Part shown: piece after piece, positions 28,340 through 31,178 of the stretch
Position numbering within the stretch: the stretch's first letter is position 1
Layout: each line of letters starts with the position of its first letter
Origin: Erythrobasidium yunnanense
Lineage: Eukaryota > Basidiomycota > Cystobasidiomycetes > Erythrobasidiales > Erythrobasidiaceae
DNA length: 64,000 bases
Assembly: GCA_001600175.1 (NCBI GenBank)
Contig: BCJC01000006.1
Span: 1,739,973-1,803,972 of the forward strand
Direction of reading: 5' to 3'
Notes under the pieces: generated by a model
What the model saw: only the letters and a program-made list of their open reading frames with translations
Told to the model about the DNA's origin: nothing
The model's database searches: none
Made by a program: the position numbers and the translations under genes

Positions 28340-31178
28340 ATGCTCACCTCCAGCCTGTTGGGCAAGCAGGCCCAGACGATGCTCAGCAAGACCGGACTGC
28401 CTCGTGAGCCAGGAAGAACGGCGATGGGCCAATGGATCTGGGCTGATTATGGTGTTTGATGTGATGTTCCAGGCAATACAATCGCGCGCAACCTCCATTC
28501 TACCGCAAGAAGAGAGAGAGTCATCGCATCCCAGCCTTTGAGAGCAAAAGAAGCGCCGGTATGGCCATCGCCCTGCTCGATCTCGCTCGCAAAGCTTAGA
28601 CAGACAAATGCATTATCACAGTCCATCGTCACTGGCAAATACCCTGTCATCGACCACGAGTACGATGCAATCGTAGTGGGAGCCGGAGGAGCGGGTCTAC
28701 GAGCAGCCTTCGGACTCGCAGAAGCTGGATTGAACACGGCATGCATCACAAAGCTTTTTCCTACTCGTTCACATACAGTAGCTGCTCAGGGAGGTGTCAA
28801 TGCAGCTCTCGGAAACATGACTGAGGTGAGACCTGTCTTTCGCGGGATCGAGATGAAAAGGCAGAATAACTAAAGTTGCTTTCGCCTCCCAGGACGATGT
28901 ACGTACAGCTGAATACTTAGAAGCAGCATCGATACTAATTACAGCCTTCTCTTCTACCTGCGATTGTAACAGTGGCGTGAGTTTCCCGCCCAATCCGCAT
29001 CTGCCTATATCTTCCTTACTGATTCCCATCCTCCTCATCTGTATGCAGGATGGCATATGTGTACGTCTAAGCTCTACTCGAAGCTGTGCGAACTTGGAGT
29101 CAGCTGCTAATGGATTCTATCTTCGACGACTACAGACGACACCGTTAAGGGTTCTGACTGGCTAGGAGATCAGGATGCCATTCACTACATGTGTCGAGAG
29201 GCACCCAAGTGCGTCTCTCACCCTATATGCCCTTTCCCAATTAGCCAGCTAAGCTCTTTTCTCTAATTGTAGCTCCGTCATCGAGCTCGAGCATTACGGC
29301 GTCCCCTTCTCCCGCACTAAAGAAGGCAAGATCTATCAACGAGCATTCGGAGGACAGTCCCTCAAGTTCGGAAAGGGAGGACAGGCATACAGGTGTGCCG
29401 CCGCAGCAGACAGAACGGGACACGCTATCTTGCACACCCTCTATGGACAATCGCTCAGACACAACACAAACTTCTTCATCGAGTACTTTGCGCTGGATCT
29501 AATCATGAATGTGCGTGAACACCTCTCTTTCTTTAGTCTTCGAATCAGTATAGGCTGATTCCCTTGCCTTTGAACGTGTATTTTGCAGGACGCTGGCGAA
29601 TGTGTCGGAGTCACAGCATACAACCAAGAAGACGGCACACTACACCGCTTCCGCGCACACAAGACAGTCCTCGCGACTGGAGGATACGGACGAGCCTACT
29701 TCTCATGCACGTCTGCCCACACATGCACAGGAGATGGAAACGCAATGGTCGCACGAGCTGGTCTACCTCTGCAAGATCAGGAATTCGTACAGTTCCATCC
29801 TACTGGAATCTACGGTGCTGGCTGCCTGATCACTGAGGGATCAAGAGGAGAAGGTGGTTATCTGGTGCGTCACGAAGCTTAATAGACTTGAAGAATAAGG
29901 CTAACGTATGCTGTTGATTTGCAGCTCAACTCCGAGGGAGAACGCTTCATGGAACGCTATGCGCCCACTGCCAAAGATCTCGCTTCTCGCGATGTCGTCT
30001 CTCGCTCAATGACCATCGAGATCCGAGAAGGCCGAGGAGTCGGGCCCGAGAAAGACCACATCTACCTGCAGCTCTCCCATCTTCCACCCGACATCTTGCA
30101 CGAACGTCTTCCAGGAATCAGTGAGACGGCAGCTATCTTCGCCGGTGTAGACGTAACGAAAGAGCCTATTCCTGTACTACCTACTGTCCACTACAACATG
30201 GGTGGTATTCCCACGAAGTATACGGGAGAGGTCTTGACAGTGGACGAGAACGGAAAAGATAAGGTCGTACCGGGTCTCTATGCGGCTGGAGAGGCAGCTT
30301 GCGTGTCTGTGCATGGAGCAAAGTGGGTTCTCCCTCTTCGCTCCAATTTGGAGTCGATGCTAATGGTTCCTTTCTTTCTGTTCGACAGCCGACTCGGTGC
30401 AAACTCCCTCCTCGACATCGTAGTCTTTGGAAGAGCATGCGCACACCATATCAGAGACAACCTCGAAGCAGGCAAGCCTCACCAGAAGGTTTCCGAAGAT
30501 GCAGGAATGGCCTCCATCCAGGAACTAGAGTGCGTTTCGCCCTCTTCTCCTTATACACAGGGAATGTGTACTGATGTTGATGTGTGGTATTGTTGCAAAC
30601 AGCCGAGTCAGACAGAGTTCAGGACCTAAACACACTTCGCAGATCAGATCAGACATGCAGAAGGTTATGCAGAGTGACGCAGCTGTATTCAGAACCAAAG
30701 GTGAGTTGCACACAACCCTATGATACTGTATGTGTCGAATGCTAAACGAATCCTGCAGAATCGCTTGATGTCGGATCCGAGAAGATGCAAAAAGTTGTCG
30801 ATTCATGGAAGGATCTCCACATCAAGGATAGATCCATGATCTGGGTGCGTTCCATAGATACACCGTATCAGGGTGCATAGCTGACCTGATCCTATCCGCC
30901 TGCCTTAGAACTCCGATTTGGTCGAAGCCTTGGAACTTCGAAATCTGCTCACAAACGCACACCAGACAGTCGTCTCTGCTGCTGCTAGAGAAGAGTCTAG
31001 AGGAGCACACGCACGAATGGATTTCGAAGAACGAGACGACGAAAATTGGATGAAGCACACGCTGTCATGGCAGAAGGACATCACAAAGGACGGCGTCAAA
31101 TTGGGATATCGGGCAGTAACAGCAACCACCTTGGACAACTCCTGCGACCCAGTACCTCCCTTCAAACGTACATACTAG
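28340..31178 (+). CDS. SDH1: succinate dehydrogenase flavoprotein subunit, mitochondrial
   Basis: Thirteen exons (28340-28403, 28473-28825, 28893-28898, 28973-28976, 29049-29060, 29136-29208, 29273-29507, 29589-29864, 29925-30322, 30389-30529, 30603-30700, 30759-30844, 30909-31178) give 671 residues. The subunit oxidises succinate to fumarate and passes electrons through FAD to the iron-sulphur subunit of complex II. The N terminus is a basic import signal. The FAD fold begins [19 protein letters not shown], the flavin-linking His lies in [17 protein letters not shown], and active-site blocks [25 protein letters not shown] (quoted in part), MGGIPT and GEAAC are present. Exons 3, 4 and 5 are 6, 4 and 12 bases long and spell the invariant DDWRWHMY. 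Length is slightly above yeast because of an extended presequence. Secure. Confidence 0.96.

Follow-up and report, generated by a model that had tools for sequence, protein, structure and literature searches.

A run of three microexons of 6, 4 and 12 nucleotides in the SDH1 gene of Erythrobasidium yunnanense, and tiny exons in other conserved genes of the same genome

The minimum size of an exon, and whether introns lying 2 to 6 bases apart can be spliced without special factors, are open questions, and most of the work on them has been done in neurons and plants. Exons of a single base have been described in Arabidopsis APC11 (PMC4674806) and in Fusarium CYP621A, the latter supported by 18 SRA reads in a report that also notes an 8-nt microexon in a Phanerochaete chrysosporium P450 (PMC12940212). 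Neighbouring small exons have been described as well: human RPS24 carries three, of 3, 18 and 22 bp, between two constitutive exons, and in the four isoforms given the 3- and 18-bp exons alternate ahead of the 22-bp exon (PMC11162997), and a rice gene has adjacent exons of 5 and 12 nt (PMC8831610). According to the latter source, coding microexons of 1 to 15 bases number 106 in the whole genome of Arabidopsis and 84 in that of rice.

Here we analyze a run of three microexons in a gene for the flavoprotein subunit of succinate dehydrogenase in the basidiomycete Erythrobasidium yunnanense. The gene lies in the window, a stretch of 64,000 nucleotides (C6:1,739,973-1,803,972) from an assembly of 20.9 Mb in 10 contigs. 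Eight consecutive residues of the protein, DDWRWHMY (residues 119-126), are split over exons 4, 5 and 6. The features of the region are as follows.

28340..31178, + strand: SDH1 (succinate dehydrogenase flavoprotein subunit), 14 exons, 13 GT-AG introns, 651 amino acids
28622..28825, + strand: upstream exon, 204 nt, ending ...GNMTE (splice/translation; spliced aligner)
28826..28892, + strand: intron, 67 nt, phase 0; CTRAY branch motif not found in the searched range
28893..28898, + strand: microexon 1, 6 nt, GACGAT (D D) (translation, enumeration, aligner)
28899..28972, + strand: intron, 74 nt, phase 0; branch-like CTAAT, its A 34 nt before the intron end
28903..28904, + strand: alternative weak GT within GTACGTAC, 4 nt further on; donor of a 10-nt exon in the rival that reads DDVRWHMY
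28973..28976, + strand: microexon 2, 4 nt, TGGC (W and the first base of R) (translation, enumeration, aligner)
28977..29048, + strand: intron, 72 nt, phase 1; branch-like CTGAT, its A 26 nt before the end
29049..29060, + strand: microexon 3, 12 nt, GATGGCATATGT (translation, enumeration, aligner)
29061..29135, + strand: intron, 75 nt, phase 1; branch-like CTAAT, its A 25 nt before the end
29136..29208, + strand: downstream exon, 73 nt, beginning (Y)DTVKGSDW (splice/translation; spliced aligner)

The positions and flanks of GACGAT, TGGC and GATGGCATATGT, which codes for the rest of R, for W, H and M and for the first base of Y, are those given by the first-pass annotation, and the phases add up as it had claimed: the complete splice translates without a stop. 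The resulting protein aligns from residue 15 to its last, 651, with the SDH flavoprotein of PDB entry 9qdl at 1037 bits. The three internal exons are thus microexons (at most 15 nt) between GT-AG introns of 67, 74, 72 and 75 nt, and the remaining nine introns of the gene measure 58-78 nt. Window positions 28899-28906 hold tandem donors, GTACGTAC, 4 nt apart and shortly ahead of the 4-nt exon.

A homologue search of the genome with the SDH1 protein found no second SDH1 copy. The sole other homologue found, at C3:668,597 on the minus strand (L002/L015), was considered as a microexon-free paralogue control and rejected, being a distant FAD protein (116 identities to SDH1 in a gapped alignment of 379 columns, L002) that is uninformative for this site. 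Elsewhere in the window, a long open frame at 21631-22776 (+) contains a reverse transcriptase domain (PF00078) and is probably a retroelement remnant. Two open frames, at 39308-40087 and 51134-51619 (both +), look alike by eye and are probably a local duplicate pair; the former had no Pfam match. A glycosyltransferase family 90 domain (PF05686) is encoded at 45473-46570 (-), and the low G+C content of 48001-50000 (0.372) coincides with a run of N within that stretch, which shows up as X in the translated open frames.

The exon structure is supported by three lines of evidence, namely coding constraint, the strength of the splice sites and conservation. To begin with the first, we enumerated all stop-free GT-AG assemblies between GNM and DTVKGSDW with up to four introns, each of at least 35 bases. 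Among the 256 assemblies, one read TEDDWRWHMY and one, the next best, TEDDVRWHMY; two others had the right length and matched 4 and 3 of the 10 residues, and the remaining 252 differed in length. Restricting the residues to the family list left one assembly with GT-AG ends and likewise one when GC donors were allowed. With free boundary bases and one, two or three introns, no assembly with family residues was found, so that four introns are the minimum giving the motif here. The conserved peptide therefore needs the microexons to be read in frame, and the earlier claim that DDWRWHMY can be obtained only from these three exons holds for the one assembly with family residues, with DDVRWHMY as a near miss. 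As a null, we shuffled the stretch 20,000 times at the dinucleotide level with the outer donor and acceptor left in place; the maximum was 8 of the 10 family residues, reached once, and 9 or 10 never occurred.

A purpose-written spliced protein-to-DNA aligner, with E. coli SdhA as the reference and splice matrices built from the nine other SDH1 introns and thus blind to these four, returned exons of exactly 6, 4 and 12 nt. With the same nine-intron matrix, the four donors of the run were the top four among 15 GTs in the stretch; the acceptors ranked 1, 3, 5 and tied 7th of 20 AGs with the first, small matrix, which counts against the model. Masking single boundaries (six masks) cost between 13.6 and 29.7 score units: 13.6-14.6 for those of the 6- or 4-nt exon and 28.5-29.7 for those of the 12-nt exon. 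The aligner was also run on decoys, for which 4, 6 or 12 coding bases were cut beside 165 ordinary introns and an artificial intron of ~130-150 bases was inserted. Counting any microexon call, weak ones included, it erred in 40, 11 and 15 of the 165 decoys for 4, 6 and 12 bases, respectively (66/495). Convincing calls, defined by a score drop of at least 13 without a gap nearby, numbered 4, 1 and 1 of 165 (6/495 overall), and false runs of two or more microexons were seen in none of the 495 decoys. Short pieces are, in principle, easily found, as the mostly weak calls in the decoys illustrate, and one might suppose that the motif is absent or that the gene is a decayed copy whose pieces fit by luck. 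The shuffles and the absence of false runs in the decoys speak against such a chance assembly, as do the intact remainder of SDH1 and the lack of a second copy in our search; we consider it strongly disfavoured, to the point of being negligible.

Conservation was assessed in 80 bacterial SdhA loci, the best 80 of 592 relatives and hence close ones, found with a query that begins downstream of the motif. The motif search read 75 of the 80 and missed L114, L117, L119, L152 and L170. In this set of close relatives, the column of the W read from the 4-nt exon holds W in 75 of 75 readable sequences, and all 75 also share the H and the first D of the motif; at the second W column, 59 sequences have W, 15 have F and 1 has Y. 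Since only columns 1, 3 and 6 are identical in 75/75, the description of DDWRWHMY as invariant was too strong: it applies to D, W and H, and the remaining columns vary. In 72 of the 75 the spacing to the N of GNM is unchanged, so that no insert is present, and the other 3 are apparently shifted by one residue.

These data bear on two alternative gene models. In the first, the gene would contain two microexons only, the 12-nt exon and a 10-nt exon (28893-28902) spliced from the downstream GT of GTACGTAC, and the protein would read DDVRWHMY. Because the tandem donors are 4 nt apart and the skipped exon has 4 nt, this path stays in frame; it is free of stops, has one microexon fewer, retains 9 of 10 family residues and becomes the aligner's preferred model when masking hides the donor at 28899 or one of the 4-nt exon's boundaries. 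It nonetheless puts V in the column where all 75 bacterial sequences have W, and its donor scores 0.2, compared with 4.6 for the donor at 28899. Its single 146-nt intron would, moreover, swallow TGGC along with a stretch equipped with a donor, an acceptor and a branch motif of its own, and only 2 of 200 normal introns, in a set that excluded those above 160 nt, reach 140 nt or more. We judge this model very unlikely.

The second alternative treats 28977-29048 as coding, so that 28973-29060 would be a single exon of 88 nt and the protein would gain 24 residues between W-R and W-H-M-Y. No insert is present at this place in the five solved SDH flavoproteins compared, four of which are near-identical, and the unchanged GNM spacing in 72 of 75 bacterial SdhA argues in the same direction; the segment itself starts with the best-scoring donor of the region and holds a branch-like motif. 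Its 72 nt are a multiple of 3 without an in-frame stop, which means that retention would escape frame checks, and a gene finder averse to tiny exons could pick this model. As a description of the gene it appears extremely unlikely.

The reading that we favor, which we hold to be very probably correct on the genomic evidence, is that SDH1 consists of 14 exons with three obligatory microexons of 6, 4 and 12 nt, joined in the mRNA as 6+4+12, and that the introns would each be defined singly and removed stepwise. The favored reading could be supplemented, without contradiction, by a regulatory role, in which skipping of the 4-nt exon would shift the frame and lead to destruction of the transcript, so that splicing efficiency would set the level of SDH1. 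Skips that include the 4-nt exon all terminate prematurely, between codons 128 and 134 of the 652 (including the stop codon), and skipping just the 6-nt or just the 12-nt exon preserves the frame. A frameshift is, however, expected on skipping any 4-nt exon, and no significant weakening is seen for the splice sites that flank microexons. Such a switch is therefore a possibility that we regard as improbable.

As for the mechanism behind the 6, 4 and 12 nt structure, the surveyed genes of this genome contain 307 introns of at most 300 nt, with a median of 61. Exon positions -3 to -1 carry 0.07, 0.16 and 0.21 bits and position +1 carries 0.04 bits. On the intron side, each base of GT and AG carries 1.88 bits, donor position +5 carries 1.4 and the base before AG carries 0.83. 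The short introns thus hold the splice information, with exonic positions near zero bits, as in an intron-defined system. Of 200 introns, 134 contain a CTRAY branch-like motif, compared with 32.8 on average after shuffling, and the motif is found in three of the run's four introns; its absence from the searched range of 28826-28892 counts against the proposal. So does the lack of stronger, compensating splice sites beside microexons (p 0.17-0.50; 16 versus 200 introns). Introns beside microexons are slightly longer, with a median of 70.5 versus 58.5 (p 0.014, same sets). Given that splice information lies almost wholly inside the short introns, the best mechanism is intron definition with stepwise removal. 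Each flanking intron of 67-75 bases would be recognised as a unit of its own and the introns would be removed one after another, so that an exon between two of them would need no recognition of its own and, as each intron carries its own signals, could be tiny. Sequential removal is suggested by steric reasoning, since a 4-base exon would leave no room for a spliceosome at both of its ends at once. In Caenorhabditis elegans, short flanking introns are reported to release a microexon from its requirement for the U1 factor PRP-40 (PMC8378409), a result that, by analogy, fits intron definition in SDH1.

Introners, or another recent insertion of repeats, were considered as the source of the four introns and rejected, as near-identical copies are lacking: the 310-bp stretch that contains the run matches only itself in the genome, and a mutual comparison of 297 introns gave 4 matches of 13-15 bases each.

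The first-pass annotation had presented the run as an oddity of one gene, a view that a survey of other conserved genes does not bear out. Such genes were located with E. coli references, and 48 of 68 loci (L038-L105) were aligned, the other 20 having been set aside manually because they were weak matches or a second part of a gene in the set. With scores under 450, three of the aligned loci (L061, L081 and L087) were excluded from the counts, and the addition of SDH1 gave 46 genes. These were taken from loci of ~3.1-3.8 kb, so the ends of long genes are missing, and the first and last exons of the alignments are uncounted. The 46 genes contain 248 internal exons with both introns at most 160 bases long, 6 of them of at most 6 bases, 9 of at most 15 and 33 of at most 30. 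Without SDH1, 45 genes with 238 such exons remain, and 6 exons of at most 15 bases occur in 5 of these genes. These cases, together with a series of small exons in malate dehydrogenase, are listed below.

C7:1,511,884 region: 6-phosphogluconate dehydrogenase (L073), consecutive 2-nt (AG) and 6-nt (GAAACA) exons, IDGGNSHYP
C2:119,010-119,536: GAPDH (L050), 5-nt exon within GINGFGRIG
C4:2,108,157: transketolase (L092), 5-nt exon within SGHPGAPM
C4:90,492: enolase (L078), 12-nt exon within DSRGNPTVE
HSP70: 7-nt exon that adjoins the first exon of the alignment, the weakest of the list
C6:1,317,119: malate dehydrogenase (L058), exons of 22, 18 and 17 nt in a row near the 5' end

The 2-nt exon of 6-phosphogluconate dehydrogenase is divided between the two glycine codons of IDGGN, supplying a single base of each. 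Malate dehydrogenase has an additional 18-nt exon further on. When assemblies were enumerated for these genes, the 6-phosphogluconate dehydrogenase pair had one best assembly (10/10, next best 8), as did the GAPDH microexon (9/9, next 7), and single best assemblies were also obtained for transketolase (8/8) and HSP70 (8/8). Since the aligner itself had supplied the target peptides, this tests uniqueness only, and enolase is left out because its target length was wrong by one residue.

Exons of at most 15 bases thus occur in about one in nine (5/45) of the other conserved genes sampled, and we consider this the more interesting point of the study. The rate looks high next to the plant counts given above, though these are hand-picked conserved genes. 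A separate tally placed 25 of 35 exons of at most 30 bases in the first fifth of the protein, which holds 103 of 297 introns. Such 5' clustering is consistent with the survival of old, dense introns near gene starts. In the history that we infer, densely packed old introns would have been kept towards the 5' ends of genes, and exon remnants would have become fixed inside motifs too conserved to change. One could go further and suppose that splicing places hardly any limit on exon size throughout this genome, that the exons of housekeeping genes can be as short as 2 nt and frequently form runs in the most conserved motifs, and that ordinary gene models, here and in related species, are wrong at such places on a large scale; we regard this proposition as evenly balanced. 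The genes described here provide natural examples of tiny exons in highly conserved enzymes with short introns, and SDH1 and the other finely cut metabolic genes would make a good test of the smallest exon that the splicing machinery can handle. Annotation pipelines would probably miss the best conserved motif in SDH1 and in several further core enzymes.

Neither SDH1 microexons nor a fungal genome this rich in exons below 15 bases appeared among the matches listed from open papers (titles and abstract starts). The structure that the first-pass annotation called remarkable, a 4-nt exon within a run of microexons, holds; its novelty is lessened by precedents for tiny exons down to 1 base, and the SDH1 run is a further case of a known kind of microexon. 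As described, the Fusarium CYP621A case is similar to SDH1 in being a fungal exon of less than 10 nt that lies in a conserved motif and keeps the frame; it was missed by annotation and is single, whereas SDH1 has a run of three, known from genomic sequence (PMC12940212). The glucose-regulated microexon of Xlr2 in Trichoderma virens is reported as another fungal example, but as a single one that switches the protein isoform (PMC11121469). Closer in setting, the P450 genes of Phanerochaete chrysosporium are described as having short introns and, in many genes, exons down to 6 bp in a basidiomycete; that account concerns the P450 family only, and a run of three is not among the features it describes (PMC1184071). 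In plants, microexons are reported, as in SDH1, to be adjacent and to encode conserved peptide, and to be widely misannotated; the rice run comprises two, and microexon positions in plants are conserved across land plants (PMC8831610). The small exons of human RPS24 are presented as alternative and tissue-specific, whereas SDH1 needs all three for a conserved motif (PMC11162997). Human MPC1, like SDH1, has a 4-bp coding exon, which is constitutive; it is reported to lie between long introns and to depend on an exon definition region, in contrast to the introns of 67-75 nt that surround the SDH1 microexons (PMC9929638).
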